Shown: positions 53,690 through 55,867 of the stretch, piece by piece
Layout: each line of letters begins with the position of its first letter
How positions within the stretch are numbered: position 1 is the stretch's first letter
Source of the DNA: Zasmidium citrigriseum
Taxonomy: Eukaryota > Ascomycota > Dothideomycetes > Mycosphaerellales > Mycosphaerellaceae
Assembly (NCBI GenBank): GCA_002786025.1
Contig: NHNW01000007.1
Coordinates: forward strand, 310,001-374,000
Direction: 5' to 3'
DNA length: 64,000 nt
The notes under the pieces: generated by a model
Told to the model about the DNA's origin: nothing
What the model saw: only the letters and a program-made list of their open reading frames with translations
Databases searched by the model: none
Position numbers and translations under genes: made by a program

Positions 53690-55867
53690 ATGACTTCCAG
53701 GATTTCGACGATATATCGATCGGCTCTCCTCGAAGACCCAGAGAAGCAACTAAGACTCTTGAAGCTTGGTGCTGCAAGCGAGCAATATCAAACAGAATAT
53801 GTTCTCAGTGTCTGGTCCTTCGACGATCATCCAGAGTTTCGCGCCATATCCTATACCTGGGGAGATCCGACCCATCCGGTTCGAATTTCGATTGATGGCA
53901 ACCCATTTATGATCACGCAAAACAGTCACTATGCTCTCTGGCAGGCAAGACAGCACTTTCCAAATTCTTACGTCTGGATGGACGCTATATGCATAGACCA
54001 GAACAATACGGCAGAGAAGAATGCCCAGGTGGCTGCCATGGGCGATATATACGGGGCTGCGTCGCAGGTTCTCGCTTGTGCCGGTCCGGCTGATGATAAC
54101 TCACAGGGCGTCTTTCGATATGCACCAACTCTAGCAGACCTTGTTGCTGGCCTCGACGGTCTGCTCGAACGCCGCGAACAAATTATGGAATTCTTTCACG
54201 ATATCAAGATAGCCTCCGATTCGTGGAGGGAATGGGCTCTGGACCATGAATTTGAGGTGATACGTGCTCTCTGTGAGAACTGGTTCCACTTCTGTAAACG
54301 ACCCTACTTCCGGAGACTGTGGATCGTCCAAGAGCTGTTTGAGGGCGGTGATGAGACCTTTGTACTGGCTGGCACAGCCATCATCAGGCTCATTGAAGCC
54401 AGAATGCTGGGTCTGGCGGTTGCTTATTGCTTTGCGTGGTATCCCTTCAATGGGATGACCCAAAGAGCCGACGAAGGCAATGCGTTCGACAATCTGTACA
54501 TTGCGGCTCACCGCCGTCGTGAGTTTTGGGAAGGTATAGGAGTGTTTATCAATTTGCTCTGCAAAGATCCGCGAGACCGCATCTTTGGTACGCTCAGGAT
54601 CACGGACTGGGAAGTCGAACCTCCACCGCGACCCGACTACGACATCACTCGATATGACTTGGCGCTTCTGCTGTTCTCCAAGAATCCAAGTTCTAGGCGC
54701 TTCGATAGTTCCATCGCCCGCGACATCGTCAAAGCACTAGAGATCAAGATTGATGATGAACAGGTACAGCACTGGATATGCGAAAGGCATTGCTCCGACA
54801 TGAGCAAGAGCTCTCTTTCGATCGAGCCTCAAATATGGGAAGAAGAGGTCGCGCATGCCTTGTTCATACAGACTGATGATTCCGGAAATCTCACTATCAG
54901 TCCTAGGTGCCAGAGGAGAGGACGCAATATCAATACTGTCGGTCTAAGTCAAGGAACGGCAGAAGATACTCCTGGGGGCACTTCACGATCGATATTCAAT
55001 GGCTCTGAGCCCCTGTGTTGGGCTCCCGAAGAGACACAGGCTGGAGACATCATAATCATGCTATCATGTATCAACCTTCTCATTCGACCTTACGAAGGAC
55101 TGGACACATTCGATGTTGTCGGGACGGTCAAGTTCATCAGGGGAACACATCGACGACACATACAAGGAAGAATCGCGAGGGAGCTCTGCGATTGTGCTGG
55201 ACAGCTGGGATCGGAATCAAATCCTCACAGCGTGATATCGATCTCTTTTGAAGCGACTGATGAGGACGTGCTTTGTGCAATTGCCGCCGCGACCAGTGCG
55301 TTGCATCCTTCGGCCACGTCTGTCGTGAGCTTGCCGGTGGGAAGTCTCAATGCATGGCTTTTCGTCTCCAGCGATGCCGACGAAATGCGAGCTGATGAGC
55401 CACTACGCCAAATACCTCTGCAGACATTGGTACATCACATGGAGAAGCATACGAAATTCAGACGGATCGGTTACGAGCTCTCGCTGCTTGAAACCGGAGA
55501 CTACATTTATCTGTCCAATCGACCATGTATCATCACCGACATCACCGGAACTGCTGGGAGCACTCAAGTCCAAATAATTGGAGTGGATCTTTTCAATGGC
55601 GAGGAGCAATCTAACTTCTTTCCGGAGCACACGATGGACTGCGAGTTGCCGCGGCCGTCCTATGAGACTCTCGTACTTGTCGGTCTCCACCAAGATAGCT
55701 ATGCTCAGCTGCGTGATATGAAAGGACTTGTACGTGAGAACGTGCTTCTTGCGAACAATTCAGGGCTTCGAGAAAACATTAAAAGCAAACTAGCGGATGG
55801 AGTCGAGCCGGATGTGACCGTCTTGAGAGTTGAGGACGAGGAAATGATTGTTGCAGTGGAAGAGTGA
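53690..55867 (+). CDS. HET-domain protein with C-terminal eIF5A-like domain
   Basis: Single open frame of 725 aa. The HET domain occupies about residues 48-220, with the hallmark motifs FRAISYTWGDP (50-60) and YVWMDAICIDQNN (94-106) and the AAMGDIYGAASQVL helix. The middle (about 440-500) has the usual HET-protein end region (AGDIIIMLSCINLLIRP, FDVVGTVKFIRG). Unusually, about 135 further residues follow that resemble translation factor eIF5A over its full length: TGDYIYLSNRPC (602-613; eIF5A has G-Y-I-V-I-K-G-R-P-C), IIGVDLFNGEE (629-639; AIDIFNGKK), and then a second half ending NIKSKLADGVEPDVTVLRVEDEEMIVAVEE. The hypusine loop is shortened and has no lysine (ITDITGTAGSTQVQ). HET proteins drive heterokaryon incompatibility cell death in fungi. 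The eIF5A call is from motif alignment by eye. Confidence 0.85.
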   Translation: MTSRISTIYRSALLEDPEKQLRLLKLGAASEQYQTEYVLSVWSFDDHPEFRAISYTWGDPTHPVRISIDGNPFMITQNSHYALWQARQHFPNSYVWMDAICIDQNNTAEKNAQVAAMGDIYGAASQVLACAGPADDNSQGVFRYAPTLADLVAGLDGLLERREQIMEFFHDIKIASDSWREWALDHEFEVIRALCENWFHFCKRPYFRRLWIVQELFEGGDETFVLAGTAIIRLIEARMLGLAVAYCFAWYPFNGMTQRADEGNAFDNLYIAAHRRREFWEGIGVFINLLCKDPRDRIFGTLRITDWEVEPPPRPDYDITRYDLALLLFSKNPSSRRFDSSIARDIVKALEIKIDDEQVQHWICERHCSDMSKSSLSIEPQIWEEEVAHALFIQTDDSGNLTISPRCQRRGRNINTVGLSQGTAEDTPGGTSRSIFNGSEPLCWAPEETQAGDIIIMLSCINLLIRPYEGLDTFDVVGTVKFIRGTHRRHIQGRIARELCDCAGQLGSESNPHSVISISFEATDEDVLCAIAAATSALHPSATSVVSLPVGSLNAWLFVSSDADEMRADEPLRQIPLQTLVHHMEKHTKFRRIGYELSLLETGDYIYLSNRPCIITDITGTAGSTQVQIIGVDLFNGEEQSNFFPEHTMDCELPRPSYETLVLVGLHQDSYAQLRDMKGLVRENVLLANNSGLRENIKSKLADGVEPDVTVLRVEDEEMIVAVEE

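Follow-up and report, generated by a model that had tools for sequence, protein, structure and literature searches.

We analyzed a 64,000-nucleotide stretch of the Zasmidium citrigriseum genome (contig NHNW01000007.1, forward-strand positions 310,001 to 374,000; hereafter the window) and find that a gene at 53690-55867 encodes a HET protein that carries a domain of the eIF5A/HEX-1 superfamily at its C terminus. As far as sequence can tell, the fusion is real, conserved in three fungi, and rare. A sequence-only reading of the window had proposed a HET protein fused to an eIF5A-like domain, had described a shortened, lysine-free hypusine loop, and had interpreted the tail as an integrated decoy of eIF5A. 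The architecture and the loop are borne out by the Pfam, PDB-sequence, and AlphaFold analyses and by the loop count described below; the decoy interpretation is not, at least in its strict form, and we lean slightly towards a broader role of the tail as a sensing or regulatory module.

Domain Architecture of the Fusion Protein

The open reading frame (ORF) runs uninterrupted from ATG to stop on the plus strand and codes for 725 amino acids. HET is a death-inducing domain for which remote TIR homology is described in the literature; in the fusion protein, a Pfam scan matches the PF06985 profile over the entire model (positions 1-146 of 146) and returns no NACHT/NB-ARC-type match. The following middle region (residues 216-537) has no Pfam match, and its outline is common to other HET proteins in an alignment with 18 paralogues from the same genome; by analogy with PMC10890737, it is possibly a "HET-associated domain" (HAD). 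The fusion protein retains all 35 of the positions that are conserved in 17 or more of the 18 paralogues, and from these the HET protein looks intact. GC content at third codon positions is 0.533, 0.534, and 0.533 across three parts of the gene.

The tail comprises two halves. The eIF-5a OB domain (PF01287) is matched at residues 660-723 with an expectation value (E) of 5.8e-6 and 26.8 bits (cut-off 24.2). The preceding IF5A-like_N domain (PF21485, residues 597-644) scores 24.0 bits in the full protein (E 3.6e-5), which is under the cut-off of 27.1, and 27.3 bits, just past it, when the tail is cut out. Residues 581-725 find eIF5A as their best match among PDB sequences (E 6e-12, query positions 17-144), and a profile of three tails (see below) reaches E values down to 2e-15. 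A chance match is rejected on these Pfam and PDB-sequence E values. The motifs R-P-C, D-L-F-N-G, and T-V-L-R-V-E or position-wise equivalents are present in the fusion tails.

Template-free AlphaFold models were calculated for the full-length protein (mean predicted local distance difference test score, pLDDT, 65.9) and for the tail alone, for which one of five models is well folded (mean pLDDT 77.2; the others 45-49). A two-domain SH3-like plus OB fold is predicted, with an OB half formed by strands 657-687, helix 691-702, and strands 708-724. The sequence-only reading had suggested comparing the tail with eIF5A by profile and structure searches: Foldseek, the scoring of which also draws on sequence, ranks eIF5A first for both models (E 4.2e-9 for the full-length protein and 1.6e-10 for the tail alone), and the Pfam matches to the two eIF5A halves fall within residues 597-723. 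In structural alignments, HEX-1 occupies the top 10 rows and has the highest Z score for both models; these Z scores were obtained on models of the fusion only.

Loss of the Hypusine Loop

HEX-1 is a Pezizomycotina descendant of eIF5A that has lost the hypusine lysine. We counted, by script, the loop span from the fourth residue past R-P-C through D-x-F. The span measures 19 residues and is lysine-free in the Z. citrigriseum fusion protein, compared with 23 residues in all five eIF5As, 19 in all five HEX-1 proteins, and 17 in both Pseudocercospora fusion proteins (see below). The Pseudocercospora loops also lack lysine, but one lysine is found in the next strand, aligned to Val-59 of eIF5A. 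At 10 invariant eIF5A loop positions, where gap placement within the short loop is uncertain, the fusions keep 3/30 cells, HEX-1 18/50, and archaeal aIF5A 32/40. By its sequence, the tail can no longer be hypusine-modified. Lysine loss and a loop shortened by four residues are, however, no mark of a decoy, because HEX-1 of the same genome has both.

Parent of the Tail

Phylogenetic trees were calculated from 16 rows, 16 rows with strict columns, 11 rows (without HEX-1), 14 rows (own fusion only), and 17 rows. In the trees with all three fusion tails, these form one clade (support 100/99, 100/98, 100/99, and 100/99), and they group with the eukaryotic sequences, which a split with support of 100/100 sets apart from archaeal aIF5A. 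Grouping of the fusions with HEX-1 receives support of 43/78, 59/48, and 67/57, none of these values being starred, and long branches call for caution at the junction of HEX-1 and the fusions. Placement with eIF5A is not rejected by the approximately unbiased (AU) test (p-AU 0.2, 0.1, and 0.2), and the tree containing only our fusion gives p-AU 0.43 with HEX-1 and 0.09 with eIF5A. One of five AU tests mildly rejects a clade of fusion, HEX-1, and own and yeast eIF5A (p-AU 0.031); the values are 0.054 for the fusion with own and yeast eIF5A and 0.41 for the fusion with animal eIF5A. The tail is 28-33% identical to animal eIF5A and 22-23% to the fungus's own eIF5A, a closeness that, given the thin sampling of five eIF5As, would not be readable as gene transfer. 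In hhalign comparisons, the tails match eIF5A with E 7.5e-16 and HEX-1 with E 3.2e-9. Profiles thus lean to eIF5A and structural Z scores to HEX-1, and long branches counsel caution on both. Taken together, the alignments identify the tail as an eIF5A/HEX-1-superfamily domain with either eIF5A or HEX-1 as its parent, between which the trees do not separate.

The Fusion in Other Fungi and within the Genome

A protein database search returned 66 proteins at E <= 0.001 among 7995 scored. The top match is AC579_5870 from Pseudocercospora musae (723 residues, 45% identity, 97% coverage), followed by AC578_5498 from P. eumusae (668 residues, 45% identity, 92% coverage). Automatic annotation already lists HET together with PF01287 for both, and PF01287 for none of the remaining 64 proteins; rescanning with Pfam places HET and eIF-5a past their cut-offs in both orthologues (eIF-5a E 1.3e-5 and 5.8e-6). 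A profile of middle region and tail recovers the same two orthologues and no others from the 7995 scored proteins; these searches were word-based and scored only the candidates with most common words, so that remoter fusions may escape and the true spread may be wider. Residues 585-725 searched as a region yielded 244 candidates, none at E <= 10, in a mode insensitive enough to overlook a known orthologue. Among prokaryote contigs scanned with an eIF5A alignment, 94 pattern matches were found and none was confirmed. The sequence-only reading had asked whether such fusions occur elsewhere and always lack the lysine; both that we found do so in the loop.

Both orthologues are co-linear with the fusion protein, linker included, although one (P0004) lacks the N terminus. 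An assembly or reading artefact is rejected on this co-linearity. Because the orthologues align through the linker and no stop intervenes, we are dealing with one gene, and a second gene behind the HET gene is likewise rejected.

The Z. citrigriseum genome itself spans 44.4 Mb in 148 contigs, and three of its loci score past the cut-off of the eIF5A OB profile, namely an intron-split eIF5A gene (contig C24), HEX-1, and the fusion gene; the IF5A N-half profile finds the same three plus a 20-position fragment far below the cut-off. The HEX-1 gene (L002:1477-2157, minus strand) contains an ORF of 226 residues with an SRL end that scores 297-319 bits against the three best PDB HEX-1 chains. Deoxyhypusine synthase has one match in the genome (E 2.4e-112, with one in-frame TGA read through). 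The HET profile has at least 150 matches, all past the cut-off (150 of 282 candidates scored). We scanned 19 HET proteins, the fusion and 18 of 19 paralogues (L022, which has an internal stop, was left out), and an eIF5A-type match occurs in the fusion only. Past the column of residue 535, the fusion extends for 190 residues and the 18 paralogues for 37-99, three of which (L012, L016, and L018) are cut by the locus end and may have somewhat longer tails. The shorter ends of the paralogues suggest that the extra C-terminal domain was gained by a full HET protein.

Conservation of the Tail

In the comparison with P. musae, conservation of the protein is lowest in the tail, with 35% identity versus 61% in the HET domain (first 49 residues 39%, middle region 43%, pre-tail 46%), in line with a role in recognition. 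Between P. musae and P. eumusae, identities are 91% in the HET domain, 86% in the middle region, 83% in the pre-tail, and 84% in the tail. Fast evolution is at best a weak sign of recognition here, because the tail differs only modestly from the middle region and pre-tail.

Five eIF5As share 51 invariant columns. At these, with non-polar and polar classes as a proxy for core and surface that is not derived from structure, the fusion tails keep 27/63 non-polar and 19/90 polar cells. The corresponding values are 36/105 and 57/150 for HEX-1, and 54/84 and 36/120 for archaeal aIF5A. In this alignment, conserved polar residues are shed more by the tail than by HEX-1. With so few left, the tail imitates the surface of eIF5A poorly.

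Genomic Context

The coordinates of all features are given in Table 1. The region just upstream of the HET gene contains genes for an MFS transporter and an FAD monooxygenase, together with one gene that combines PvcA/DIT1 and TauD domains, a group resembling a biosynthetic cluster of the isocyanide type. Downstream follow a kinase-like fragment and a cutinase. The kinase-like gene directly follows the fusion gene and is split across several frames, suggesting introns or decay.

Table 1. Features of the fusion gene and of its surroundings, in window coordinates
Feature	Position	Strand	Basis
Whole gene: HET, middle region, linker, eIF5A/HEX-1-type domain	53690-55867	+	single frame, 725 residues
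HET domain, residues 50-215	53837-54334	+	PF06985, E 6.8e-27
Middle region, residues 216-537	54335-55300	+	alignment with 18 HET paralogues of the same genome
Linker, residues 538-597	55301-55480	+	pLDDT < 50; alignable with both Pseudocercospora orthologues
SH3-like half, residues 597-646	55478-55627	+	PF21485, residues 597-644; strands 605-645
Degenerate hypusine-loop region, residues 619-626 (T-G-T-A-G-S-T-Q), without lysine	55544-55567	+	alignments, recount
OB-fold half, residues 657-725	55658-55864	+	PF01287, residues 660-723
DUF1295 protein	44003-45049	+	PF06966, E 4.3e-33
Upstream group: PvcA/DIT1 isocyanide-synthase-like, TauD, FAD monooxygenase, MFS	46149-48398; 49346-50830; 52173-53369	-; -; +	PF05141, E 4.9e-33; PF02668, E 1e-23; PF01494, E 2e-47; PF07690, E 1.8e-8
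Protein-kinase-like gene	56003-57100	+	PF00069, E 2.6e-4 on 56759-57070, below cut-off
Cutinase domain start	62165-62725	-	PF01083, E 8.3e-9

Discussion

We slightly favor the view that the gene encodes a HET-family regulated-cell-death protein whose fused eIF5A-superfamily tail acts as a sensing or regulatory module. A copy of eIF5A, or of its Pezizomycotina descendant HEX-1, would have been joined to the end of a complete HET protein before the split from Pseudocercospora, would no longer act in translation or in Woronin bodies, and would now serve the HET death effector as a ligand-sensing or regulatory part. By analogy, the tail is probably the recognition or control part and not a working translation factor. 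This reading draws on two precedents. In HET-B (Bh) from Podospora anserina, which combines HET, HAD, and a lectin fold, the C-terminal domain determines specificity (PMC10890737), and for fungal NLR cell-death receptors, extra domains have been interpreted as putative integrated decoys (PMC12258605, PMC5658179). HET-B likewise has an N-terminal HET domain and a middle region, an extra C-terminal domain less conserved than HET, and no NLR architecture. It differs in that its C-terminal domain has a lectin rather than an eIF5A/HEX-1 fold and in that its function is genetically proven, whereas that of the fusion is assigned by analogy. The putative integrated decoys of Sordariales (PKinase and others; PMC12258605) are likewise copies of cellular domains located C-terminally on a death receptor, but these receptors are NLRs with NACHT/NB-ARC domains. 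PMC12881547 and PMC10197012 provide background on HET genes and on guard models. The fusion would thus be of the HET-plus-recognition-domain kind, with the eIF5A/HEX-1-type tail as a new variation.

Several observations weigh against a sensing or regulatory module. Compared with P. musae, identity in the tail falls only modestly short of that in the middle region and pre-tail (35% versus 43-48%), and between the two Pseudocercospora species tail and pre-tail are about equally conserved (84% versus 83%). The IF5A-like_N half goes unseen by Pfam at E <= 1 in both orthologues. No evident partner was found among the ten neighboring ORFs that we scanned with Pfam, three of which have no match at all. 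For most HET genes, no role in allorecognition is known (PMC10890737).

The sequence-only reading had gone further and proposed that the tail might, as a decoy, serve to sense an agent aimed at eIF5A or its hypusination; HEX-1 was not considered as an alternative. A recognizable copy of a cellular protein is indeed fused to a HET-family cell-death protein, as in an integrated decoy receptor, so that a sensor domain in the broad sense is plausible. The Pfam and PDB sequence matches point to an eIF5A-family origin of the tail, its profile is nearer eIF5A than HEX-1, and putative decoys have been proposed in Sordariales NLRs (PMC12258605). The tail shares with eIF5A the SH3-like plus OB fold, the R-P-C and D-x-F motifs, and the best sequence matches. 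Unlike eIF5A, it is attached to HET, has neither the T-G-K-H-G-H loop nor the hypusine lysine, and retains few of the conserved polar residues (19/90 cells; 3/30 in the loop); it is 22-23% identical to the eIF5A of the same fungus. HEX-1 weakens the eIF5A-decoy reading further, because it shows that a lysine-less eIF5A copy can take another role. The claim is unproven and, taken strictly, unlikely; we consider a true eIF5A decoy improbable, and sensing of hypusination through the copy unlikely because the modifiable loop is lost.

HEX-1 (HexA; PDB IDs 1khi, 7asi, and 8qlu), the major Woronin-body protein, has an eIF5A-type fold without the hypusine lysine, as does the tail, and shares with it the loop four residues shorter than that of eIF5A. 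HEX-1 self-assembles in Woronin bodies (PMC7762394), and the tail could by similar self-association gather HET domains as an oligomerization or clustering scaffold, with no foreign ligand involved. We regard this scaffold as rather unlikely: the fusions lack the HEX-1 segment just ahead of the fold and, ending in VEE or SPG, also the SRL signal at the C terminus; Foldseek places eIF5A first; and the lead of HEX-1 in Z score is measured on models of the fusion only. The tail further differs from HEX-1 in having no insertion past D-x-F, in its ∼20% identity, and in its attachment to HET. In Verticillium dahliae, HEX-1 deletion leaves heterokaryon incompatibility unchanged (PMC7762394), which argues against a link between HEX-1 and incompatibility. 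A role of the tail in targeting HET to the ribosome or peroxisomes would be suggested by family membership only; with the hypusine loop lost and no SRL-type end in any of the three fusions, we find it very hard to credit. We give little weight to a functionless passenger or a misassembled or misread gene. Low conservation of the tail relative to the orthologues would fit such a case, but the architecture, the open frame, and the linker are common to three fungi, and the three motifs or their equivalents are kept.

A bolder version of the sensing or regulatory module, which we consider a long shot, is that the tail, derived from HEX-1 or eIF5A, lures intracellular parasites of the fungus such as RNA mycoviruses; a virus would be sensed directly and the infected compartment killed. 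In work attributed to Son et al. in 2016, Fusarium graminearum HEX-1 reportedly binds viral RNA ends and accompanies higher viral RNA accumulation. If true, the fusion would be an integrated decoy in a protein that is not an NLR.

The sequence-only reading knew of no described HET-eIF5A architecture, and no paper on such a fusion turned up in our literature search, outside of which most subscription papers lay; one paper there mentions eIF5A along with integrated decoys (a maize acetylproteome) and one both Pfam families (an Aspergillus flavus genome comparison). In filamentous fungi, few groups of genes are as abundant or as poorly understood as the HET genes, and the ligands they sense are mostly obscure. 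A recognizable, conserved extra domain from a well-studied protein provides a defined handle for seeking a HET ligand, and makes the idea of non-NLR integrated-domain sensors in fungi testable. The tail would also be a further case, besides HEX-1, of the eIF5A fold being reused without hypusination.
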